Below, one piece after another: positions 33,398 to 59,540 of a stretch of DNA of 64,000 nt (its first letter is position 1; every line of letters starts with the position of its first letter). This stretch comes from Chloroflexi bacterium HGW-Chloroflexi-4 (GTDB lineage: Bacteria; Chloroflexota; Anaerolineae; Anaerolineales; Anaerolineaceae): NCBI GenBank assembly GCA_002840715.1, contig PHBW01000004.1:62001-126000 (forward strand), in the 5' to 3' direction. Made by a program: the position numbers and the translations under genes. The notes under the pieces are model-generated. The model did no database searches. It worked only from the letters and a program-made list of their open reading frames with translations, and was not told the origin of the DNA.

Positions 33398-34798
33398 ATG
33401 GCTAACTTACTTGCAAGTATAAATGTAGCATTAACCGCCCTACTTAGTCATTCACAGGCAACCACAGTGTATGAGCACAATGTTGCCAATGTCAACACAC
33501 CCGGTTATCACCGACAAAATGCTAAAGTAACAGCAGGCCCAGCTGTTTCACTTTCTAATGCTTATTATGGCACCGGTATTGGCCAAATGGGTTCAGGGGT
33601 CTACGTTACAGCCATTCAACGCTATGCAGTTGATTTTTACGATACAAGGTATCGCCTTGAAAATCAAGAAGCGAGCAAATGGTCAGCTGAAAGTGAAATT
33701 GTTGCCCAACTTGAAGCGTCTCTGCTTGAGACATCTACCGATGGACTTTTGCCAAAGATTGAAGCTTATTTCAGCAATTGGCAGGCAGCTTCTGATGATC
33801 CGACCAATACCAGTGTTCGGCGGCAGCTCCTTGACAGTGCAAAAGAACTGGCAAGTTCAATTAATACCCGTTATAGTCAGATCGAATCAATTCGTTCCGA
33901 ACAAGATTTACGTATTGAACAAAGTATTCAAGAAATAAACCTTATTGCAGAAAACATTGCCAGTTTAAATCGCGAGATCTCACGTGTAATGTCAATTGGT
34001 GATTCACCAAATGATTTATTGGATGCACGTGATGTTGCTTTGGATCGATTATCTGAAATTGCAGGTGCAACATCATTTAAACAAGCCAATGGCGAAGTCA
34101 GCGTTTCTATCAACGGACATATTTTAGTTGGTGGACACGACACCTATCCACTGCATACCGAGATTGATCCAACGAACGAAAATCTTACCAGGATGGTGTG
34201 GAGCGATGGTAAAGAAATGGTGCCAACTTCTGGCGAATTGGCCGGTGTAATTGAAGCACGCGACACCATTTTTGAAGACCAACGCACTGGATTAAACACT
34301 CTTTCCATGATGCTAAAAGATCAGGTAAATGCACTTCACTTTAACGGCTATGGTTTAGATAATTCAACTCAAATCAATTTCTTTGAAGGTACTGATGCTG
34401 GTAACTTTAAAGTGAATGAAGCATTAGAGGATGTATCTAAAATTGCGCTATCCTCTGCCATAAATCAACCAGGTAACAATGAAATTGGCCGGGAAATATT
34501 CAAACTCAGAACCACTGGCACACTAAATTCAGATACGATGACTTTTAGTCAATATTACAATGACCAAATTTCTAAATTAGGTTTAACAGTGTTAAGAGCC
34601 AAAACCAATGCACGTGATCGTTCTCTAGTAGCTCAAGCACTTATATCCCAACGTGAATCAGTTACAGGTGTCAGTCTTAACGAAGAAGCTGCCAATATCG
34701 CTAAATCTCAAAAAGCGTATGAAGCTGCGGCAAGAGTCATTAGTGTGATTGATGAAATGCTAAATACCGTCATCAACGGTATGGGCGCCGGTAGATAG
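33398..34798 (+). CDS. flgK: FlgK hook-filament junction protein 1
   Basis: The 466-residue product has the conserved N-terminal ANVNTPGYHRQ motif, a helical D1 domain with a long coil (about 150-210), and the C-terminal SGVSLNEEAANIAKSQKAYEAAARVISVIDEMLN type ending (here GVSLNEEAANIA). FlgK is the first junction protein on top of the hook. It lies 10 bp after flgN. It lacks the tandem module seen in FlgE and FliC. Confidence 0.95.
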   Translation: MANLLASINVALTALLSHSQATTVYEHNVANVNTPGYHRQNAKVTAGPAVSLSNAYYGTGIGQMGSGVYVTAIQRYAVDFYDTRYRLENQEASKWSAESEIVAQLEASLLETSTDGLLPKIEAYFSNWQAASDDPTNTSVRRQLLDSAKELASSINTRYSQIESIRSEQDLRIEQSIQEINLIAENIASLNREISRVMSIGDSPNDLLDARDVALDRLSEIAGATSFKQANGEVSVSINGHILVGGHDTYPLHTEIDPTNENLTRMVWSDGKEMVPTSGELAGVIEARDTIFEDQRTGLNTLSMMLKDQVNALHFNGYGLDNSTQINFFEGTDAGNFKVNEALEDVSKIALSSAINQPGNNEIGREIFKLRTTGTLNSDTMTFSQYYNDQISKLGLTVLRAKTNARDRSLVAQALISQRESVTGVSLNEEAANIAKSQKAYEAAARVISVIDEMLNTVINGMGAGR

Positions 34799-34809
34799 GA
34801 TCAATAATT

Positions 34810-35706
34810 ATGAGAGTTCCTGACAGCATGACCTATAACAATGCCATACGCTATATGAATGAATCAAAAGCAAAAATGGATAAATTGGCCGAAAGAGCGA
34901 CCACATTTAAGAATTTCTCTAATTCTTCTGACGATCCAAGTTTGGTATCATCTGCCCTTGTTTTACGCTCGAGCATACTTGTCAGCAAAGGTTATATTTC
35001 AACAGGTACCAATGCACAAGCCTGGATGGAAAACAATGAGACCTCATTTAATTTAATGAATGACCTTATTGGACAGGCGAACACGATTATGTTAAAAGGC
35101 GTTTCAGACACAGTAGGCGCTGAAGATCGTGCCAATGATTATGCCGTTCAAATTGCCCAAATTCTAAATCAAGCGGTATCTGTAGGAAACTCTTCTTACA
35201 ATGACACATATTTGTTCGCAGGAAACATGGTAAAAACGAAACCCTTTGAACTAGTCACAGCCCTTGATGGTACTCTCTCGGTTGATTATTCAGGTGACTC
35301 AGGTTCAATGAAACGAGATCTTGCTCCTGGTGTTGTCGTTTCTATCAATACAGATGGAGTTGCCGCTTTTAATCCTTTCTTTGATGCATTAATTCTCGCA
35401 AAACACGGTCTTGAAACAAATAATGCCACCGAGATGAATACCGCACTGGCTAACATCAGTAGTTCACTATCAACCATGAATGTTGCAAGAACCAACAATG
35501 CAGCCATTCTAAGGCAAATTAAAACAAGCAACGAACATTTAACCACAACCCAAAATGAATTAAAGGGGTTATTATCAATCAAAGAAGATGCCAATATGGC
35601 TGAAGCGATCTCAATGTTTAATCTTCAACAAACCACCTATCAAACAGTGCTTGATGTTTGCGCCAGATCGATCTCTGCCCTCAATTTATTTGACGCATTA
35701 AGGTAA
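34810..35706 (+). CDS. flgL: FlgL hook-filament junction protein 3
   Basis: The 298-residue product starts MRVPDSMTYNNAIRYMNESK and carries the flagellin-like helices with FSNSSDDPSLVSSALVLR, then DTYLFAGNMVKTKPF in the middle, and ends with the helical LLSIKEDANMAEAISMFNLQQTTYQTVLDV. FlgL links FlgK to the flagellin filament. It lies 11 bp after flgK. No additional module is inserted. Confidence 0.94.
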   Translation: MRVPDSMTYNNAIRYMNESKAKMDKLAERATTFKNFSNSSDDPSLVSSALVLRSSILVSKGYISTGTNAQAWMENNETSFNLMNDLIGQANTIMLKGVSDTVGAEDRANDYAVQIAQILNQAVSVGNSSYNDTYLFAGNMVKTKPFELVTALDGTLSVDYSGDSGSMKRDLAPGVVVSINTDGVAAFNPFFDALILAKHGLETNNATEMNTALANISSSLSTMNVARTNNAAILRQIKTSNEHLTTTQNELKGLLSIKEDANMAEAISMFNLQQTTYQTVLDVCARSISALNLFDALR

Positions 35707-38058: not shown

Positions 38059-39957
38059 TTATTGCTTGAGGTTTACCAATTCTTGAAGAATTTGATCAGA
38101 AGTCGTGATTACACGAGTGGAAGCCTGGAAACTGCGCTGGGCAAGAATCATGTTGGTAAATTCTTGAGCCATATCGACATTTGAGGCTTCAAGATAACCA
38201 GAAGATATTGCACCACGACCACCAGTGTTGGCAGTACCGATTTGTGGTTCACCAGAGTTCAAACCAATTTTATATTGGTTGCCGCCGGCACGCAACAAAC
38301 CTGAAGGATTTGTGAAATGTGCCAGAGCAAGCTGACCCACCAATTGTTTCAACCCATTGGAATAAACCAGGTACATTTCGCCTGTATTCGGAGCACCGTA
38401 TAATTCTGATACTGAGCCGGCTGCCAAACCATCCTGGCTGCGTGGTGAAAGTGTTGTGTCAGCCGATAACATAGTCAACTTGGAGAGATCCAGGTCAATG
38501 TCAATTGGATCCGCGCCATCAACTCCTGGAATAACCACTGGATTTGCAAGCGTTGAATTATTGTATCTTCCATCAGATGTAAATGTAATTGTTCCGTTTC
38601 CAGAAGAGCCCACAGGGTCAGTTACTGCCCAAGTCCACACTAATGGATCAGCAGTACGAGTAAATTGAATGGTGGGGGTGTGAGAGGCTCCCATTGAGTC
38701 ATATACAGCAATCGTGGTAGACCTTGAAGCGGAAGTTTCGGCTGCAACAGAATGCGTGTACCCTACCGTTCCACTTGTAATAGACTGATCGGTACCTGGT
38801 GACCCTGAATGTGTGTATGTGAATGCCAAATCATTAGCTGAATTAGCTCCAAGACCAGCAGCCAAATTTATCGAAATACCATTTCCTAAATCAATTGTCG
38901 TTCCAGTAGTATTGTTATAGACCCCAGAAACCGCTGCACTACCAGATAACTGAACTGTATAATTGAAACCACTCGCTCCATTCGAAGTAGTAGTGTAAGA
39001 AACAGTATATGCTCCACTTGCTAACTCGGCTACGCCAATACCCAACGGAGACAATGAAGCCGAATATTGTGTTCCAGCGTTTGTAGTGGTCATAGTTGCA
39101 GCTAATCCACTATCCAAGGTAAAGGTTAAACCTCTTCCAACATCAATTACAGCTCCGGGATCGCCAGGGTTGGCAGGCGTGTTTTCGTATGTCCCAGTTA
39201 TTGGTGCGCCAACACTGGTACCTGAACTATTCCGCAATTGTGCCGTATATGAATAACCACCTAAAGAATTGGCTGAGATAACCGTTCGTAGAGAATAGTT
39301 ACCGCTCGCTAATTCAATGGTTGTGCTTGTCGGAGGAGATACTGCGGCAGTGTAATCTGTGCCTATATTTGTGATGTCCACATCTGCTGCAGCAGGTGAG
39401 ATTTCATAGGGTAAACCTGAATCCAAATTACCACCAAGAGATGCGGCAGAAGTGGCACGGGCTATTGTTGCGTCCAAAGAAATCTGCATGGCCGTAGTGG
39501 GTTGATTTGTGTCGACTACCGTTGATGTTCCAGGGTTGATCATCCACCCCATGATGCGCATACCAGTGGAATTATTTACTAGATAACCGTCAGCATCAAT
39601 TTCGAGTGAACCTTCACGAGAATAGCGGGTTTCTTGCCCATTGGTGTAGGTGAAGAATCCGTTTCCTTGGACGGCAAGGTCAGTACTTCGACCAGTAGAT
39701 TGCATCATGCCTTGGGTAAAGGTTGGAGATACATAACCCAATTTTACGCCCAAACCGATTTGAGTCGGGTTGATACCACCGACATTTCCAATTGGCGCTG
39801 CGCCTGAGCTCATGATCTGAGCAAATTGATCCTGAAAGATTACTCGGCTGGCTTTGAAACCAGTGGTATTTGAATTGGCAAGGTTGTCAGAAATGACATC
39901 CAAAAAGGTTTGGTTTAAGTTTAACGAACTGATAGCTGTAAACATTGAGCGAATCAT
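38059..39957 (-). CDS. flgE: FlgE flagellar hook protein with tandem module insertion
   Basis: FlgE forms the hook. The 632-residue product has the N-terminal MIRSMFTAISSLNLNQTFLD, SDNLANSNTTGFKASRVIFQDQ, and the C-terminal ASNVDMAQEFTNMILAQRSFQASTRVI. Gram-positive FlgE is often about 260-400 residues, so this one is long. Residues about 195-406 hold two Ser/Thr/Gly-rich repeats (IGTDYTAAV..., then AGTQYSASL...), each ending in a VGRGLTFTL or LGNGISINL strand, also found in FliC. The upstream frame extends 12 codons, but AGGAGAG directly precedes MIRSM. Confidence 0.95.
   Translation of the reverse strand: MIRSMFTAISSLNLNQTFLDVISDNLANSNTTGFKASRVIFQDQFAQIMSSGAAPIGNVGGINPTQIGLGVKLGYVSPTFTQGMMQSTGRSTDLAVQGNGFFTYTNGQETRYSREGSLEIDADGYLVNNSTGMRIMGWMINPGTSTVVDTNQPTTAMQISLDATIARATSAASLGGNLDSGLPYEISPAAADVDITNIGTDYTAAVSPPTSTTIELASGNYSLRTVISANSLGGYSYTAQLRNSSGTSVGAPITGTYENTPANPGDPGAVIDVGRGLTFTLDSGLAATMTTTNAGTQYSASLSPLGIGVAELASGAYTVSYTTTSNGASGFNYTVQLSGSAAVSGVYNNTTGTTIDLGNGISINLAAGLGANSANDLAFTYTHSGSPGTDQSITSGTVGYTHSVAAETSASRSTTIAVYDSMGASHTPTIQFTRTADPLVWTWAVTDPVGSSGNGTITFTSDGRYNNSTLANPVVIPGVDGADPIDIDLDLSKLTMLSADTTLSPRSQDGLAAGSVSELYGAPNTGEMYLVYSNGLKQLVGQLALAHFTNPSGLLRAGGNQYKIGLNSGEPQIGTANTGGRGAISSGYLEASNVDMAQEFTNMILAQRSFQASTRVITTSDQILQELVNLKQ
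38740..39375 (-). repeat. Two tandem axial-protein modules within flgE
   Basis: Two copies of about 95-105 residues. Shared features: (I/A)GTxY(T/S)A, then SGxYxxxxxxxxN followed by G(Y/F)xYTxQL, then GxYxNT, then IDxGxGxxxxL. The second copy is followed by an SGTVGYTHSVAAE segment that matches FliC. One copy pair in FlgE and one in FliC align over their whole length. Confidence 0.8.
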
Positions 39958-50348: not shown

Positions 50349-52097
50349 CTAAGCATAAAGACTTGCATAAAGTGATGTTACCCAGGCAGAATTTGTATTT
50401 TGAGTATTTGACAATAAATCCATCTGCGCTTGAACATCTGCATAATATTTTATTAATACCTGTTCCCGTGCATCCAACCTCTTATTCATACTAATAATTG
50501 AATTACCGACATCAATCGTCTTTTTTGCATTTGCTTTTATTAGTTGATCAACATAAGAAGTTGTTCCTGTATATTTATCTAATTTTGAAGTGACATCAGA
50601 CATCACGCGATCCATTACAGATATCACATCTGAATAATTATTATTTAGTGCATTTTCCAACTTAGCATTGTTCGTTATTGTCATGTTTAATTGACTATCA
50701 ACTGTAATTCCTATATCCTTAATCGATTTATAAACAGTTGCTGTTAAATCTGAGCTTCCCACGAGACTGAATAGTGAATTTCTCAAGTTAATAATTGATT
50801 GATCACCCGACAAGGATCCTCGTGTATATGTGTTGTCAGTATTCTTAGTAATGGTTAGGTTTGAACTAATGTAACTCTGTAATGCATTAAAATTAGTAAT
50901 AAATGTATTTATCGCAGCTTTTTGTGACGTATTATCTGAATTAATATTGAGTGTTGCTGATTTTCCTTCAGCATCAGCTGCGAGGTTTAAAGTTACTCCA
51001 CTAATGACATCTGTTAAAGCTGAATTTTGAGAACGCGTGACTAACAAGCCATTCACTTTAAAGGTTGCGTCACGTGCAGACTGCATAGGGTTTTTAAAAC
51101 TTGAACCTGTTAAAATGCCGAGGTCACCTAAAACAGCACCACTTGCCTGGATCTCATGTGATTCGCCTGTATATTTTGAACTCAATACCATTTGTTTATT
51201 TACCACTGTAGCAATAACCTCATTGCCTGATGCAAAATTGCTTGAGTTTATTGCAAAAGCAATATCATTGAGCGACATACTTGATGAAACAACAACTTCA
51301 GCACCTTTTGCTTGATAATTAATGCTAGTTGCACCACTCAATTTACTTTTTTCAACAAAATTAGATGAGTCAGTTCCGAAATTAATATTTAATCCCCGGC
51401 CTGTTGAAAAAGTAATACCATCCGTAGGAATTGCCTGCCATGAATTAGTAAAATTGGTTGTACTATTGCCGTTAGCTATTTTTATTGCAGTGCCTTCGCT
51501 GTCAACAAGTCTAAATTGCCAGGTGCCAGCTGCGTTTTTCTGAGTTTCGATGTAATAAGTCCCATTTCCAATTTCTTTTTGTCCTGTAGCAATGGAATCG
51601 CTTGTATTTACTTGCGAAATGGTATCAGGAGATTGAAGAGTAACTACTGCACTGCGGTTTTGGGTTCCGCCAATATAGAAAGTTCCACTCTTAGCTAATG
51701 CCTGATCGGAATATTCTTGCTGATCTGAACGCACCCGATGCGCCAATGCCAAGCTTATCTCTGAAATATCATAGGATGATGCAACTGCACTACTAGAACT
51801 TGCTGCACTAATAATTGTAGTTCCTGTAGCAATATTCGAAACAGAAACAGTTCTTCCGGCTTTTAGTGTGTAAAAAGGATCGGTACTGATCAAAGCTTTT
51901 GATGATGTTCGCAATGCGTCCAATTTCGTTTTTAGTTCCGCATACATGGTTCGTTGAGTCTGCAACGCAGTTTGCTGCGCTTCAAGCTTAGTTAATGGAG
52001 CGCTTTCCATTTTAATTTGATAATCAATCAAATTTTGGTAAGTCGTATCCAGTGACGTAAGACTGGTCCCAGATGTGGATGATGAAGTTGTGGTCAT
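50349..52097 (-). CDS. fliD: FliD filament cap protein with module
   Basis: FliD caps the filament and helps flagellin insert. The 582-residue product has the N-terminal helix SLTSLDTTYQNLIDYQIKMESAPLTKLEAQQ, the domain with VNGLLVTRSQNSALTDVISGVTLNL (FliD core), and the C-terminal coil LDAREQVLIKYYADVQAQMDLLSN. Residues about 167-252 (NGTYYIETQKNAAGTW, RLVDSEGTA, GITFSTGRGLNINFG) resemble the module repeated in FlgE and FliC. It has its own sigma-28 promoter. Confidence 0.95.
   Translation of the reverse strand: MTTTSSSTSGTSLTSLDTTYQNLIDYQIKMESAPLTKLEAQQTALQTQRTMYAELKTKLDALRTSSKALISTDPFYTLKAGRTVSVSNIATGTTIISAASSSSAVASSYDISEISLALAHRVRSDQQEYSDQALAKSGTFYIGGTQNRSAVVTLQSPDTISQVNTSDSIATGQKEIGNGTYYIETQKNAAGTWQFRLVDSEGTAIKIANGNSTTNFTNSWQAIPTDGITFSTGRGLNINFGTDSSNFVEKSKLSGATSINYQAKGAEVVVSSSMSLNDIAFAINSSNFASGNEVIATVVNKQMVLSSKYTGESHEIQASGAVLGDLGILTGSSFKNPMQSARDATFKVNGLLVTRSQNSALTDVISGVTLNLAADAEGKSATLNINSDNTSQKAAINTFITNFNALQSYISSNLTITKNTDNTYTRGSLSGDQSIINLRNSLFSLVGSSDLTATVYKSIKDIGITVDSQLNMTITNNAKLENALNNNYSDVISVMDRVMSDVTSKLDKYTGTTSYVDQLIKANAKKTIDVGNSIISMNKRLDAREQVLIKYYADVQAQMDLLSNTQNTNSAWVTSLYASLYA
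51342..51599 (-). repeat. Single divergent axial module in fliD
   Basis: Residues about 167-252 follow the same order as the FlgE/FliC modules: NGTYYIET, then GTWQFRLVDSEG, then a gap, then GRGLNINFG, which lines up with VGRGLTFTL of FlgE. Identity is clearly lower than between FlgE and FliC. Confidence 0.5.
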
Positions 52098-52326: not shown

Positions 52327-53892
52327 TTACTTGAAGAGGGAGAGTAGAAATTGAGGAGCTGCATTAGCCTGGGCTAACATTGCAGTAGAGGTCTGCTGCA
52401 ATATCATCAGTTTGCTCGCATTCACTTGCTCTTCAGCCATATTGGCGTTCATGATTCGGTTATAAGATGCTTCAATGTTGATCTGTGAAGACGAAACCTG
52501 ATCTTCTTTGAAGGTTAATGAACCGGTCAAGGATCCAATTTTGGAGAGTTGAGAATTGACCAGGACCATTGCATCATCAATTTTCTTCATGTACGCCGCA
52601 AAGTCATCCGCATTTGACACCGCCACCGTACCATTTAATCCTGACAGTGCCATATTTACTCCAGCAGCAGATGCAGCTACTGAATGAGTATAACTGAAAG
52701 CGCCGCTTGTTCTTACTGCGTCGGTACCAGCGCCATCATCGAAGACAAATGAGTCGCTAACACCGGTAGCATTAGCAGCAATGCCGGTTCCCAAAGTAAT
52801 TTCCAGAGAGTTTCCGAAATCAATAGTAGCACCTGCAGTAGTTCCGTCGTACGCGACAGTTACAGAACTACCATATGCAGCTCCAAGACTATCCAATAAA
52901 GTGGCTGTAACTGACGTGCCACCTGCCGAGATGGTGTAAGAAACTGTATAGCTACCATCAACTAATGCAACACCAGATGTTCCAGTGCCGGAAAGGTCAA
53001 CAGTCATGCCAGTACCAACGACAGAAGTGCCAACGATGCTTGCAGCAACGGGATCTGTTCCAACCTGACCAGTGGCCAAAGCTACAGAAATACCATTTCC
53101 GAAGTTGATGGTTGCTCCAGCAGAAGCAGAATATGTACCAGTGACAGCACTACCTACTGCTTGACCAGCAAGAGAAAGTTGTGAAGAATAAGTATAACCA
53201 TCAGTTGAATTGCCAGAGATCGTGGTCGTGACTGTATAGGAAGTTCCAGTTGCAGCTTCTGTCCCGGATGCAGCTACAGCACTGGCAGTATAAACGGTTC
53301 CAATGCTGCTTTGTGAAATAGTTGCGGAAGTGGCTTGAACAGCATCATTCAAAAGACCCAATGCTGAAGCCTGCATATCAGCCAGACCATATAATTTCGT
53401 GGTTTCGCCATAATCAGCACCAGTTTGGAAGGTCAATGCATTTGCCAGATCATTATAATTACCACCAATGAGTTTTTTGTCACTCCATTTGGTTTGAGCG
53501 ACAATGTCGTTAATTTGATTTGCATAAGAAAGCAACTGTTCTTTAACGATTGCGCGCTCTTCGGTACCATTGGTGTCATTTGCAGCATTTTCTGTGATCA
53601 TACGCATTGAGTTCAGGATGTCAGTCAAACGTCCTAAACCAGATTCTGCGACAGCCAAGAGGTTCTTGGCATCACCAATGTTTGAAAGAGCAACTTTCAA
53701 ACCTTCGCTGCGAGACATCATTTTTGTAGAGATCGCCAACCCGGCGGGATCATCCGCAGCGCTGTTGATTCTTCTACCAGTTGCCAGACGAGTCTGGTGA
53801 ATCGAAAGTTGTTTGTTGATGTTGGTCAACGCGTACAGCGCATTCATAGCGCCAATATTGCCAGCAATTCTAGTTACATCATTATCAGCCAT
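52327..53892 (-). CDS. fliC: FliC flagellin with tandem module insertion
   Basis: Filament protein, 521 residues. N-terminal D0/D1 helices: NINKQLSIHQTRLATGRRIN, SAADDPAGLAIS and a long helix to about 170. C-terminal D0/D1: NIEASYNRIMNANMAEEQVN, SKLMILQQTSTAMLAQANAA and the terminal LLSLFK. The variable region 197-407 is two Ser/Thr/Gly-rich modules (IGTVYTAS..., then a second ending GAFSYTHSVAA) that align with the insertion in FlgE. It has its own sigma-28 promoter, a long structured leader and a strong terminator. Many Ser/Thr could be O-glycosylated by the enzymes encoded next door. Confidence 0.96.
   Translation of the reverse strand: MADNDVTRIAGNIGAMNALYALTNINKQLSIHQTRLATGRRINSAADDPAGLAISTKMMSRSEGLKVALSNIGDAKNLLAVAESGLGRLTDILNSMRMITENAANDTNGTEERAIVKEQLLSYANQINDIVAQTKWSDKKLIGGNYNDLANALTFQTGADYGETTKLYGLADMQASALGLLNDAVQATSATISQSSIGTVYTASAVAASGTEAATGTSYTVTTTISGNSTDGYTYSSQLSLAGQAVGSAVTGTYSASAGATINFGNGISVALATGQVGTDPVAASIVGTSVVGTGMTVDLSGTGTSGVALVDGSYTVSYTISAGGTSVTATLLDSLGAAYGSSVTVAYDGTTAGATIDFGNSLEITLGTGIAANATGVSDSFVFDDGAGTDAVRTSGAFSYTHSVAASAAGVNMALSGLNGTVAVSNADDFAAYMKKIDDAMVLVNSQLSKIGSLTGSLTFKEDQVSSSQINIEASYNRIMNANMAEEQVNASKLMILQQTSTAMLAQANAAPQFLLSLFK
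52672..53304 (-). repeat. Two tandem axial-protein modules within fliC
   Basis: Copy 1 (residues about 197-290) and copy 2 (about 291-407) share SxYTVxxTIS, then LxxxGxxxGxxVxxxY, then GATI(N/D)FGN. The final DAVRTSGAFSYTHSVAA matches SITSGTVGYTHSVAA of FlgE. A 17-bp stretch encoding YTVSYT (52934-52950) differs by one base from flgE 38993-39009. Confidence 0.8.
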
Positions 53893-54236: not shown

Positions 54237-55100
54237 ATGATTCCATCACAAGATGTTTCATCCAAACCGAGTGCTGATTTATTTATTGAAATTCGCAATA
54301 GATTATTAGCGCCCCCATATAAAGATGTGTTGAAAATCAAGGAATTTATAGCATCATTAGACGGTCAATCATCTGGTTTGATTGTAAATATTGAAGGCGT
54401 GGACCTCCTAATAAAATCAGTTATTGATGTGCATTTAATAAGTAATATCTACATCCAGAAAGTTTATGATTACTTATTTACTGAACCTACGATTGTTGTA
54501 GATATTGGCGCAAATGTTGGTTACTCGGCCATTTGGTTCGCAAAAAATGATTTTGTAAAAAAGGTTTATGCATTTGAACCAGTAAAACCCACCTATGACC
54601 AAGCATTGGAATCGGTTCAATTAAATCCGTCATTTAGTAATAAAGTTGATTTTCGCAATATTGGTGTTTCAGACAGGAATCAAACATCTTCTATACTTTA
54701 TTTTAAAGATCACCATACGATATCCTCTGTATTGTTTACTGACCCTCGGAAAATCACTACTAGTGGAAAACCCCCAAGCAGTGTAACAATTGACTTAGTT
54801 AATGCGAAAACAATTTTTGATGAAATAATCACATACCAAGATCAACAGAATTGCAGAATGGTCATGAAGATTGATTGTGAAGGTTCAGAATATGCAATTT
54901 TTGATAAATTCGATACAAAAATTTGGAATGCTATTGATGTAATCCTTATGGAAGTACATGGAGAGCATTATCGAGATTTATTAAAGAAACTTGCATATCA
55001 TGGATTCGAGGTGTTTTCAATTAATCACCAAAAACATCAGATGTTTGGTCATCTTTGTGACGTTTATGCGATTAAATCTTATAAAAATAAGCAATTATAA
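54237..55100 (+). CDS. FkbM-family methyltransferase
   Basis: The 287-residue product has SAM-binding motif I VVDIGANVGYSAIWFAK (about residues 85-100), the following acidic strand VYAFEPVKPTYDQA, and the FkbM motif MKIDCEGSEYAIF (about 215-227). FkbM enzymes methylate hydroxyls on sugars or polyketides. AAGGAG precedes the ATG. Divergent from fliC and next to glycosyltransferase genes, it may methylate flagellin glycans. That is inference. Confidence 0.88.
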   Translation: MIPSQDVSSKPSADLFIEIRNRLLAPPYKDVLKIKEFIASLDGQSSGLIVNIEGVDLLIKSVIDVHLISNIYIQKVYDYLFTEPTIVVDIGANVGYSAIWFAKNDFVKKVYAFEPVKPTYDQALESVQLNPSFSNKVDFRNIGVSDRNQTSSILYFKDHHTISSVLFTDPRKITTSGKPPSSVTIDLVNAKTIFDEIITYQDQQNCRMVMKIDCEGSEYAIFDKFDTKIWNAIDVILMEVHGEHYRDLLKKLAYHGFEVFSINHQKHQMFGHLCDVYAIKSYKNKQL

Positions 55101-55136
55101 GAATTCTGGGACTAAAACTTACTGAATAAGAAAAAG

Positions 55137-55174
55137 AATAAGAGACTTATTAGAATTAAAAAAAGTCTCTTATT
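55137..55174. terminator. Bidirectional terminator between fkbM-type and glycosyltransferase genes
   Basis: AATAAGAGACTT and AAGTCTCTTATT (12 bp, 14-nt A-rich loop) lie between two convergent genes. T-rich sequence follows on the plus side and the mirror A-rich sequence on the other, so it may serve both. Confidence 0.7.
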
Positions 55175-55198
55175 ATTGAATATCAATTAATGTTTGTG

Positions 55199-57541
55199 TT
55201 ACTTTTTTTGCCCAATATAATGTTCGATAAACTCTTTGAGACTCGACAACGCTTCAACAACTTCGTGTAAATTGAGAGCTTTTGCTTCCTGGATTTTCGT
55301 AATTACAAATTGTCTCAAATCTTCATCCAACCATGTTTCATGTTCTTGTAAAAAGGAAACAACATCGTTTGAATTCACAATTCGATTAAACTTTTCTAGA
55401 ACAGGCAATGCGTTAGGATTCTCTGATTCTTTTGGTAACCAATTATTGAATATTTGCTCTTGAATTTCAAAAAAGTCAGGAATCTCAGCTAGTAAAGAAC
55501 TATAGAAATGTGTAGCTGTAAAAAAATCATTATTTGCACCATAATAATCTGCCAAAAAACATTTCAGTTCATAATCGTGAGGTGCAGCTTCCAACATTTT
55601 TTTTGCGATGTCGATCGCTCTTATTCCTTGTTTGGTTTTGTTTAGCAGTTTAACTATACTTTTTCCTGCAGGTAAATAATTTGGAACGGATTTTAATATC
55701 ATTTCTAGCAATACAATGGCTTCTTTAGTCCTACCCAAATAATCCAATGAAATTGCATGATTATGAATGGCAGGTAAATATGAAGAGGAAATAGCTTGGG
55801 CAGAAGCAAATTCTTTTCTGGCGTCTTCATAACGTTCAGTGCGAATAAATAACATACCTCTTAAATTTATTAGTACTGGATGGTTTGGAAATTCAGTTTG
55901 GGCTTGTTGTAGTGTATCCAGTACCAATGGAAAATTTCCGTCCTTGAAATAATCTCCAATTTTAAAAATATACTCACTCATTTTGTCATTGAGCGTAATC
56001 TTTTTATCTAGAGAACTTCTCAATTCTTCTACAGTCTTATACCCCTCTGGCAAATGTTTACTAACTGCGTGGAATTGTTCCATAGCTGATACTTGTTGAT
56101 TTCTATGTTCGGCAGAACCAGGTGAGTTAAGATATAGCCCCAGTGTTTCAGCTAAATGATAAAACTCCTCTGTTTTTGCGATTCTTAACCAAAATTCATA
56201 ATCTCCAGCTGAAGTATAAAATGGATCAAAATATCCATATTTATCATGAAGGCTTTTCCTCCACAGCGGCTGTGGACCAATGTAACAGTTTTTATACATC
56301 CGAAGTCTATCGAAATCGCTAAAAAGGTAATATCCAGTAATTTGACCGGTTTCAAAATTTGCATTTTCTTGTGTCGTAATGGCTACATCGCTGTATACGA
56401 GTGAAATTTTTTCATTTCCATCTAGAATTTTTGATAGTTTTTCAAGAGCATATGCCTGGTGGCGGTCATCAACATTCGCATTAGTAATGTATTTACCTCT
56501 GGCATGTTTTATTCCCCGATTCCAGGCTGCGTAAACGGTTTCCTTCTTTTCTGTCCTTATATATACAATATTATCAAATCGTGTCTGATAATCAGCCACA
56601 ATACTTTTTTCATTTTGTTCAGATCCGCTGTCAATTACGATAATTTCCATTTCGTTGGCTATTGACTGAGCTTCAAGATCATCCAAACAGCCTTTTATAA
56701 ATCTTTCTCCTCTGAAGGTGGAGGTGATGGCGGAAATTTTATACGGTCGATCAACAGAATTGTCAATTACGATCTCGTCTGGTAACGGTAAGTTGATAAC
56801 TTCTGGTGGAACATCTTTTTTAGCAGGATTTAAAAATACTTCACGATAATCAACCTTTGGAAATTCAGTTAATTTACCTTCTAAGGTCGCATCATAAATG
56901 CTGCGATTATGATTTTTTAGGAATAAATTAGCTAAATGGTAGCCCTGCTCTGATCGGTCCAGATCAGGCAAATGCCAATGGGTACCTGTGTTGAAGTATT
57001 CAGGAGAAAAATGGTTCGGATCTTGACCGTTTGCTACAACTTCCTGGTTAGGTTTTCCTTCTGCGGTGTAATTATGGTCAACTCCAATTAAAAATATTTC
57101 TGAAAAACCAAAATAATAAGCCAGTTGCATACAGACATACGTTACTGTCCATCCTTCAAAAATGCCTTTATTCGGATCCTCAGAAAATATCCATTGGTTA
57201 AGGGAATCCAGAAAATGAAGTTTTGAGTTTGGTTTAAAGAATTTTTCACCACTTCTACTGAGAAATTTTGGGCTGGGTATTGCCATGATCTCATTAACGC
57301 TTTGCGAAATCACCAAGGGATTTACACACACGTAATAACTTGGTACAAAATCAAACTTTTCGAAACCCAAATAAATGCGATTTGTGGCAATGGTGAACTC
57401 ATTTTTTAAAAATGAAAGATCCATTTTATTTAAACTTGGTCCATTACCTATGATGACACACCTTTTTCCAGCGTGAATATTATGATATTTTTCCATTGGA
57501 CCCGGATTGCCGCTAGCAACACCTTGAGGTTTCGATTTCAT
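55199..57541 (-). CDS. DUF115-type / GT2 glycosyltransferase / TPR fusion
   Basis: The 780-residue product has three parts. N-terminal (about 20-230): CVIIGNGPSLNKMDLSFL, TIATNRIYLGF and IFLIGVDHNY, a DUF115-type domain as in motility accessory factors and some sialyltransferases. Middle (about 265-490): a family 2 glycosyltransferase with SAITSTFRGERFIKGCLDDL, IIVIDSGS, TNANVDDRH and YEFWLRIA. C-terminal (about 540-760): TPR repeats. Such proteins are linked to flagellin modification in several bacteria. It follows the 653-residue gene by 37 bp. Confidence 0.8.
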   Translation of the reverse strand: MKSKPQGVASGNPGPMEKYHNIHAGKRCVIIGNGPSLNKMDLSFLKNEFTIATNRIYLGFEKFDFVPSYYVCVNPLVISQSVNEIMAIPSPKFLSRSGEKFFKPNSKLHFLDSLNQWIFSEDPNKGIFEGWTVTYVCMQLAYYFGFSEIFLIGVDHNYTAEGKPNQEVVANGQDPNHFSPEYFNTGTHWHLPDLDRSEQGYHLANLFLKNHNRSIYDATLEGKLTEFPKVDYREVFLNPAKKDVPPEVINLPLPDEIVIDNSVDRPYKISAITSTFRGERFIKGCLDDLEAQSIANEMEIIVIDSGSEQNEKSIVADYQTRFDNIVYIRTEKKETVYAAWNRGIKHARGKYITNANVDDRHQAYALEKLSKILDGNEKISLVYSDVAITTQENANFETGQITGYYLFSDFDRLRMYKNCYIGPQPLWRKSLHDKYGYFDPFYTSAGDYEFWLRIAKTEEFYHLAETLGLYLNSPGSAEHRNQQVSAMEQFHAVSKHLPEGYKTVEELRSSLDKKITLNDKMSEYIFKIGDYFKDGNFPLVLDTLQQAQTEFPNHPVLINLRGMLFIRTERYEDARKEFASAQAISSSYLPAIHNHAISLDYLGRTKEAIVLLEMILKSVPNYLPAGKSIVKLLNKTKQGIRAIDIAKKMLEAAPHDYELKCFLADYYGANNDFFTATHFYSSLLAEIPDFFEIQEQIFNNWLPKESENPNALPVLEKFNRIVNSNDVVSFLQEHETWLDEDLRQFVITKIQEAKALNLHEVVEALSSLKEFIEHYIGQKK

Positions 57542-57578
57542 TTATATCTCCAAACTTGCTATATAGAGTAAATGGTAA

Positions 57579-59540
57579 TTAGTTTAGATATTTTGCCACA
57601 ACGGCATTTACTTCCAAATCTTCTGGTACAAATTTTAAATAAAGCATCAAGGCAAATAAACCTTCCTTTGTCTGCCCCGTACTTAGCCAATTCAATCCAA
57701 CCTTTTTTATTCCTTGAACTGGAGATAAACGTAATAGATTTGAAATTTGTTCAACATTATTTTGATAACTTGAATTACCAGGTTCTTTAATGTAGGCTTG
57801 AACTGCTTTTTCCAAGGCTTTATCGTTTTCTTTTTCTTTGAGTGCGATCAATGACTCAAGGTTATATGCAAAAGGAATTTCAGAATTTATTAATCTAGAT
57901 TCATCAATTAATTTTTGTGCAAATTTAAGGTTGTTAAGTTGTATTTGACAATTTGCCAAATCCAAATAGTCTTGAGCTGTAAGTTCGCTTTTAGATGCCG
58001 CCCTCAGAATATTTGAGTATGTTTCAATATATTTAAGATTTTCTTTTGGGGTTTTTGCCAGAATTCGCAACTGTTCTGCAGAAAATGAATCAACATCTTC
58101 ATAATGCTTATCATAGCTTTGATGTTCAGATTTTTCACTTTGGCTTTTCTGAATTTTTTTTGCTTGAAGATAATATTTCCTTGCTTTTTCATTCTCTTTC
58201 AATAACACACATGTTTCAGCCATCAGCTTTGAACACTCAACTTCGTTGTACTTATCAGGAAATAATACATCAGAAAAGGTTAACTTAGTCGAATATTTTT
58301 TTAAAGTCCAATCAAAGATCTTGTTTGCCCGCTTCCAATCTGCTCTATTGAATAAATAGATTTGCCCAATAAATTGCATCATGCACGAGTAAACATTGAA
58401 ATCAACCTGAGCATCCAGAAGAATGTTTATAAGATCAATATCTCTTTTTTCAAAAACATATTGCTGACACAAAGCTATGTAAGCCAACCCCATATATTTA
58501 ACAGGTGAAGCGTCGTCGGGTATGTCTTTTACGCCTCTTTCCAAGTCACTAATAGCGTCACCCTTTCGTGTGGTGTTTAGCAATAACAGTCCTCGAACCA
58601 GTCTTACGTAAAAATCTTCAGGGTGTTTCTCTAAATACTGTGTACAGACGCTAATATTTCTTTCGGTTTTTTTCTCCGAAGAACCGGCTTCCAGGAATTC
58701 ATAACCAGAATGTAAAAAATCCACATTGGTTAAACATTGAACCAAGCCTAATTTGGCTGCACTAAGAGCCACGGTTTCATGAATAGGATAATGATAGATC
58801 ACACCTAAATGATTTCGTATCAGACGAACATTTTCAACTGTTTGAACACCATTTCTCAATTTACTGACTGTCGGACACAAATAAATATCTGCCACACCAC
58901 TATTGACGCAGTGAAGTAATTTCGCTTTTTCCGGTTCTTCAATCCATTCATCAGCATCGGTACGAAGAACCCACTCGCAACTTGCATAACTCAAACTTAC
59001 ATTTCTCGCTTCAGCAAAATCATTTGTCCATTCATAAAATTCAACCCTTGCTCCATAACTCTTTGCGATTTCAACTGTTCTATCGGTTGAACCTGTGTCG
59101 ACAACCACAATTTCTTTGACAATATCTTTAAAAGACTCTAGACATCTAGGAAGGTCTTTCTCTTCATTTTTTACAATTAATACCAAGGAAATATCGGGGA
59201 ATTTTTCAGGCCGTACTGAATTATCAAATCTGCGATAAATAGTTTTTCCTACAACTTTAGCACTTTGTTCGACAATTAATCTGGTCGCTGTGTCATTATC
59301 TGGATAATCTAAAAGTTCTTTAAAGGCAAATAATCTTGCTTGCCGCCGCTTATTCATTCTTAACAAGCATAAAGCTATACTGAGCTGCAATCCGCGTGGA
59401 TTATTTTCATTCTGGTAAATTGAAAGGTACTGGTTATAAGCACCGACAAAGTCACCTTTATCATAGGCTTCTCTTGCTTTTTTTTGTAAATCTTTATCAG
59501 AATATTCAAAATCAGTTGACAAATGGTTTTTTAAGCTCAT
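57579..59540 (-). CDS. TPR-GT2 glycosyltransferase, SunS-like
   Basis: The 653-residue product has an N-terminal TPR-like part (15-60), a GT2 domain (about 105-320: SLVLIVKNEEKDLPRCLESF, IVVVDTGSTDRTVEIAKSYGA, DFAEARNVSLSYASCEWVLRTDADEWIE with the metal-binding DAD), and a long TPR region to the end. Its GT domain resembles SunS-type transferases that glycosylate peptides. It starts a two-gene operon convergent with the FkbM gene. The target is likely a secreted protein such as flagellin, but this is inferred from position. Confidence 0.85.
   Translation of the reverse strand: MSLKNHLSTDFEYSDKDLQKKAREAYDKGDFVGAYNQYLSIYQNENNPRGLQLSIALCLLRMNKRRQARLFAFKELLDYPDNDTATRLIVEQSAKVVGKTIYRRFDNSVRPEKFPDISLVLIVKNEEKDLPRCLESFKDIVKEIVVVDTGSTDRTVEIAKSYGARVEFYEWTNDFAEARNVSLSYASCEWVLRTDADEWIEEPEKAKLLHCVNSGVADIYLCPTVSKLRNGVQTVENVRLIRNHLGVIYHYPIHETVALSAAKLGLVQCLTNVDFLHSGYEFLEAGSSEKKTERNISVCTQYLEKHPEDFYVRLVRGLLLLNTTRKGDAISDLERGVKDIPDDASPVKYMGLAYIALCQQYVFEKRDIDLINILLDAQVDFNVYSCMMQFIGQIYLFNRADWKRANKIFDWTLKKYSTKLTFSDVLFPDKYNEVECSKLMAETCVLLKENEKARKYYLQAKKIQKSQSEKSEHQSYDKHYEDVDSFSAEQLRILAKTPKENLKYIETYSNILRAASKSELTAQDYLDLANCQIQLNNLKFAQKLIDESRLINSEIPFAYNLESLIALKEKENDKALEKAVQAYIKEPGNSSYQNNVEQISNLLRLSPVQGIKKVGLNWLSTGQTKEGLFALMLYLKFVPEDLEVNAVVAKYLN

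Follow-up and report, generated by a model that had tools for sequence, protein, structure and literature searches.

The cores of the flagellar hook and of the flagellar filament differ in fold, and the outer faces of the two structures are usually treated as separate. How could a hook protein and a flagellin come to carry what looks like the same pair of surface modules, and what would such a pair do there? The question arises in a flagellar gene cluster that makes up the window, i.e., the stretch of 64,000 nucleotides analysed here (Chloroflexi bacterium HGW-Chloroflexi-4, contig PHBW01000004.1). Our reading, to which we give a probability of about 0.6, is that positions 38740-39375 encode a pair of outer-surface beta modules gained by the hook from the flagellin of its own lineage, and that they most likely form part of a continuous, perhaps O-glycosylated coat.

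The FlgE insertion and its FliC counterpart

The hook gene flgE (38059..39957, minus strand) encodes 632 amino acids from the ATG at 39957, and its product is 94% identical to the FlgE of G009, a sister species of the same genus. The core domains recognized by Pfam are Flg_bb_rod, the FlgE/F/G D1 domain (LlgE_F_G_D1, residues 96-161), FlgE_D2 (405-511), and Flg_bbr_C, and no Pfam family scored above cut-off in residues 162-404. In six other FlgEs that we inspected, at most about 20 residues separate the end of D1 (GGNL or GNL) from the start of D2 and its first strand (YDS or FDS); compared with them, the window's FlgE holds an insert of about 220 residues in the D1-D2 gap. We place this lineage-specific insertion at 38728..39411 (minus strand, residues about 184-411, boundaries drawn by eye against close FlgEs); the matches in 52 other genomes are split around it. 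It contains module 1 (39082..39372, minus, residues 197-293) and module 2 (38740..39081, minus, residues 294-407, with YTHSVAA at its end), the interval 38740-39375 on the minus strand corresponding to residues 196-407. Structure prediction of the insert was poor (pLDDT 60.3, pTM 0.37).

The flagellin gene fliC (52327..53892, minus; 521 aa) also encodes two copies of this module of about 95 residues, module 1 at 53023..53310 (minus, residues 195-290) and module 2 at 52672..53022 (minus, residues 291-407). They lie between Flagellin_N and Flagellin_C, in the place of the hypervariable D2/D3 of flagellins, and no Pfam family scored above cut-off in residues 146-434. Flagellin outer domains (D2/D3) are described in PMC12445082 as variable and partly exchangeable between flagellins. 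With respect to such exchange, the new part would be the capture by a hook.

That FlgE and FliC both carry two tandem modules had been proposed in a preliminary description of this DNA, and the comparisons bear it out. BLASTP of FlgE 187-407 against FliC 185-407 gave 81.6 bits, with a composition-adjusted E of 1e-20, 36% identity, and 53% positives. The Smith-Waterman score of the two regions was 304, for a shuffle mean of 82 and sd of 10.5 (z 21), and 0/500 shuffles reached it. All six pairs among the single modules FlgE1, FlgE2, FliC1, and FliC2 gave z values from 8.0 to 14.3, none of the scores being reached in 500 shuffles; the top pairs by score were FlgE2-FliC2 (178), FlgE1-FlgE2 (145), and FlgE1-FliC1 (141). 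HHalign, which the description had suggested as a check, gave 98.5% between the FlgE modules and the FliC modules of the window and its sister (a value with no shuffle null) and 97.5%, score 68.5, against the flagellin modules of other genomes, above all of 100 column shuffles (maximum 22.8). The motifs quoted there are present in both proteins, with small deviations (FliC has IGTVYTASA, and TGTSY in place of SGxY), and the YTHSVAA end is identical. Moreover, the double-module arrangement in FlgE and FliC recurs in a second assembly, that of the sister species.

Could this likeness be compositional, i.e., could two Ser/Thr/Gly/Ala-rich surfaces look alike without common descent? Both regions are rich in Ser and Thr and nearly devoid of Lys and Arg, which inflates raw identity. 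However, the BLASTP value is already adjusted for composition and the shuffles preserve it, the motifs follow each other in the same order up to the identical end, and the FlgE profile outscores the best of 100 column shuffles by a factor of 3.0 with the FliC of other genomes and of 2.1 with FliD. We give this explanation hardly any credence; BLASTP, shuffles, and motif order refute it for the FlgE-FliC pair. As far as sequence comparison goes, the homology of the two regions is certain.

We searched the FlgE protein (P0003) in 61 genomes and in 400 genomes of the order. At the E 1e-20 threshold of the order search, which misses distant FlgE genes, 54/400 genomes had a match. Among these 54, a match through residues 187-407 occurs only in the window's genome and in G009; in the other 52 the FlgE match comes in pieces, and no piece listed covers residues 196-405. 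Against a profile of 15 modules (A4, see below), the best of 14 other FlgE proteins, four of them long, reached 7.0 bits; the window's two FlgE modules, both of them rows of A4, reached 64.0 and 54.5 bits. The inserts of the window and G009 agree at 87% of protein positions and 78% of DNA positions (dN 0.073, dS 1.46, dN/dS 0.050), and the FliC modules give a dN/dS of 0.099, both ratios being rough since dS is near saturation. With a dN/dS of about 0.05, the FlgE insert is, on this estimate, under purifying selection.

A second origin would be a duplication of FlgE D2, as may have happened in FlgE of the G025 type, followed by convergence on flagellin composition. Indeed, the G025 FlgE matched the D2 region of the query (residues 405-515) one additional time, if weakly (17.6 bits, E 8.7e-4), and hooks may grow in this way. 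We nevertheless find such an origin very improbable for the window's insert: a profile of 15 FlgE D2 segments aligned to the FlgE modules at 0.46% by HHalign (score 14.0, for a null maximum of 14.75 in 40 shuffles), whereas the same modules match flagellin at 97.5-98.5%. The assignment of the insert to FlgE_D2 (PF07559) was also rejected, Pfam placing FlgE_D2 at 405-511 and the D2 profile staying at null level against the modules.

Some other hooks are enlarged. L015 (in G025), L155, and L156 hold FlgE frames of 551-556 aa, possibly with a second FlgE D2-like domain and with no module; L155 and L156 look alike by eye. The FlgE of G959 (L154, a 489-aa frame) shows a Gly/Pro-rich addition in the D2 region and no module match (6.5 bits).

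The module in cap proteins, relatives, and giant proteins

In the window's genome, profile A4 found five copies of the module, two in FlgE, two in FliC, and one in FliD. The filament cap gene fliD (50349..52097, minus; 582 aa; Pfam FliD_N and FliD_C) carries its copy at 51303..51620 (minus, residues about 160-265; A4 E 1.1e-30, the row itself being in A4), and no Pfam family scored above cut-off in residues 120-340. The model of this module (pLDDT 90.8) has flagellar axial proteins as nearest structures, with modest Z. In FlgE, FliC, and FliD alike, the modules are flanked by conserved N- and C-terminal Pfam segments. Neither the short flgK (33398..34798, plus; 466 aa; FlgK_D1 and Flg_bbr_C) nor the probable flgL, short as well (34810..35706, plus; 298 aa; Flagellin_N and a position after flgK), is among the five module matches (A4, E 0.01).

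A first profile (A2), made of the eight FlgE and FliC modules, matched further flagellins and the FliD of relatives. Among the genomes with the module, G000, G012, G025, and G026 contributed rows to A4, and none came from G016, G018, G028, G036, G038, G041, G050, or G052. With A4 (E 0.01 or better), the module was found in 13 of 61 genomes of relatives, in FliD (12/13), flagellin (9/13), and FlgE (2/13), the carrier class being the BLASTP class of the locus or else its position and frame length. With these counts, the hook copy is the unusual one, and the idea that the module is particular to hook and filament falls. FliD was the sole carrier found in G038, G041, G050, and G052; in G046, FlgE is present and A4 found no module. 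In G012 the module is in flagellin only, and its assembly gave no FlgE match and no FliD module. L037 (G012:C7), of the window's genus, holds, close to the beginning of its contig, a flagellin whose two modules have diverged.

Scanning GTDB genomes with a FliD alignment returned 43 loci. Of these, 31 have a FliD and 7 a giant protein that carries the module, and 5 have a FliD that lacks it in this position; this last class is under-sampled, because one of the two search patterns lies inside the module. At L113:9797-12097, a FliD frame of 767 aa has two tandem modules, so that the cap protein can duplicate the module too.

The seven giant-protein loci (L120-L126) match FliD residues in and around the module at 24-45% identity. 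Five of the seven are labelled as Planctomycetota groups and one as Prosthecobacter, a genus of Verrucomicrobiota; this last bin may be mislabelled, its frame resembling by eye that of the planctomycete L126. The frames reach 13,938 residues, each of the seven genomes has one or two modules, and FG-GAP_2 repeats were present in all five of the proteins scanned with Pfam. The module is rare in the phylum of L120, since only one of 246 genomes matched, L120's own.

How tightly these groups hold together was measured by HHalign between group profiles, all of them delimited with A4, itself a mixture of FlgE, FliC, and FliD rows. FlgE modules against FliD modules, with the window and its sister left out, gave 95.1% and a score of 50.3 (maximum 24.0 in 100 column shuffles), and flagellin modules of other genomes against FliD 98.4% and 88.2 (null 17.7). 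The FliC modules of the window and its sister reached only 13.1% against FliD (24.5, null maximum 20.6). By BLASTP, FlgE against FliD was not significant (E 2.6), and the window's FlgE and FliC modules matched their own FliD weakly in Smith-Waterman alignments (z 2.5-3.9, the score being reached by 2 to 10 of 500 shuffles). The relation between FlgE and FliD modules thus appears good at profile level. FliD against giant-protein modules gave 99.9% and 179, and FliC against giant-protein modules 90.5% in the linking chain, neither value having a shuffle null; the FliC modules of the window and its sister gave 1.7%, and the FlgE modules 2.5% (score 18.4, null maximum 28.5). Hence, a relation of FlgE to the giant proteins would be transitive only.

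Precedents exist for related outer domains in axial proteins. The arrangement of domains assumed here for hook, junction, and cap proteins follows PMC12221982. The D2 of FlgL resembles that of FlgK, according to PMC6155364; here the sharing is seen in sequence and joins hook, filament, and cap, and no module was found in FlgK or FlgL of the window's genome. One FlgK has a D3 with a fold like that of its own D2, and the Campylobacter FlgE has two extra domains (PMC5691160). Unlike the D3/D4 of that FlgE and the outer domains of H. pylori FlgE2, the window's insert precedes D2 and shares its ancestry with flagellin; the sequence matches included no solved FlgE. The view that the outer domains of hook and filament are normally unrelated may therefore be too strong at fold level, given the FlgL/FlgK likeness and the FliD-module model. 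In the open-access literature, we found no paper describing an outer domain that hook, filament, and cap share by sequence homology.

Origin and probable direction of the transfer

A tree was built from 15 modules, seven of them from flagellins of other loci and eight from FlgE and FliC of the window and G009. The latter eight group in one clade to the exclusion of the seven (99/99). Within this clade, trees holding E1+C1, E1+E2, or C1+C2 (E, FlgE module; C, FliC module) were not rejected (p-AU 0.51, 0.35, and 0.27), and the grouping E2+C2 had a support of only 60/67. In a tree of 37 rows, the modules of FliD and of the giant proteins group together (98/99), in a clade that includes one flagellin (L100) and no FlgE module, and FlgE1 goes loosely with FliC1 and a G012 module (83/78). 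Several orders of duplication and transfer fit these topologies, and so would, on the trees alone, the reverse direction.

The direction from flagellin to hook is suggested by the distribution, because the module occurs in flagellins from other genera and, among the FlgE proteins compared, in no further hook. The most economical history would be a single transfer, in the common ancestor of the two species or earlier. Movement of the module between axial genes, as the preliminary description had it, is in this respect supported together with the homology. Within the genome, the FlgE insert and the FliC modules are only 50% identical in DNA, which gives no sign of recent gene conversion and makes the capture older than the split of the two species; it is not datable further, because G012, of the same genus and with a two-module flagellin, gave no FlgE match in its assembly.

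Flagellin and hook could also have acquired the double module separately, with FliD or a surface protein from outside the flagellum as donor, or the hook could have been its first carrier. The module does occur in these organisms' own FliD and in giant proteins from other phyla, and the tree does not fix the direction. But the clade of FliD and giant-protein modules includes the L100 flagellin and no FlgE module, the FlgE and FliC copies of the lineage stay together in one clade, and no other FlgE match spans the insert region in the 54 genomes with a match. We judge such histories unlikely, and retain capture by the hook from its own lineage's flagellin. In this Anaerolineaceae lineage, the clear kinship of the hook pair with the filament pair, and its more distant one with the cap module, suggests that outer domains are able to pass from one component of a flagellum to another.

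Surface chemistry and a possible common coat

The FlgE insert is 29% Ser+Thr, with 3 Lys/Arg in 211 residues, and the FliC modules 32%, with 1 Lys/Arg in 213; the window's FliD module has 24% and 8 Lys/Arg in 103 residues. For the window and its sister, median Lys+Arg and Ser+Thr per 100 residues are 1.3 and 28 in the FlgE modules and 0.0 and 31 in the FliC modules, both of which are free of Trp; the medians are 2.6 and 22 in other flagellins, and 6.2 and 24 in FliD modules. Ser+Thr alone is not telling, because it is high in all of FliD.

The insert would leave the polymerising D0/D1 parts intact. The FlgE parts flanking it are 99.5% and 97% identical to those of the sister, so that normal hook polymerisation is expected, the modules projecting outward beside D2 if known FlgE structures are a guide. 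Two modules would then stand on the outer wall of the hook, the same modules on the filament, and one on the cap. Hook and filament would show one chemistry, rich in Ser/Thr and almost without Lys and Arg. The resulting continuous coat, perhaps O-glycosylated in the cytosol by TPR-glycosyltransferases encoded near fliC, would give the hook the same modification and shielding as the filament. We consider a coat shared by the two structures, and possibly glycosylated, to be the likeliest function.

The coat may alternatively be adhesive or structural, the hook modules packing with each other or with filament modules rather than carrying glycans. We see this as a serious possibility, though the less probable one. 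Giant proteins that resemble surface proteins contain the module in its FliD version, and outer D2 domains may reinforce the junction, according to PMC6155364. On the other hand, FlgK and FlgL, which sit between hook and filament, have no module that we could find, Trp is absent and charged residues are scarce in the copies of FlgE and FliC, and no binding site was identified.

On a larger scale, one interchangeable domain family might build the outer surface of the flagellum (hook, filament, and cap), the hook having captured the tandem pair of flagellin, flagellin glycosyltransferases coating the whole appendage, and exchange taking place among axial genes with unrelated cores and with giant surface proteins of other phyla. 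We offer this generalization tentatively and find it rather doubtful as a whole. A hook that captured a flagellin outer domain, kept under selection, makes the exchange of surface domains among axial genes directly testable, and FliD, single-module flagellins, and hooks without the module are available for comparison. The domain family lies outside Pfam coverage and links flagella with giant proteins of other phyla. The captured pair also offers a natural way to ask whether glycosyltransferases specific for flagellin recognize the outer domain or the core.

For glycan attachment, the evidence is circumstantial and partly contrary. According to PMC7591256, FlmG of Caulobacter, a TPR glycosyltransferase, uses its TPR part to bind flagellins, to which it attaches O-glycans in the cytosol; loss of NeuB is without effect on hook export there, which we count against the coat. 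Like FlmG and Maf, two window proteins beside fliC are candidate flagellar glycosyltransferases with TPR and glycosyltransferase domains fused. One is an MptE-like, GT2, and TPR protein (55199..57541, minus; PF01973, PF00535, PF14559), the MptE-like (DUF115) domain being presumably the Maf core; the other is a GT2 and TPR protein (57579..59540, minus; PF00535, PF14559). Both have GT2 first and TPR behind, whereas FlmG is described with an N-terminal TPR and a GT-B-like C-terminal end (same source). An FkbM-domain methyltransferase (54237..55100, plus; PF05050, 1.3e-12) lies beside fliC as well. Compared across 34 loci, 15 of them longer than 21 kb, the FkbM gene had no match at E 1e-8, the sister's locus included, and the MptE-like protein had matches in L117, L092, and L089 and none in the sister's locus (L084). 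The interval 54237-59540 looks like a flagellar glycosylation locus, of which only the GT2/TPR gene was matched in the sister's locus; its homologue there is 79% identical and lies about 6.6 kb upstream of fliC, and weaker homologues occur in five further loci.
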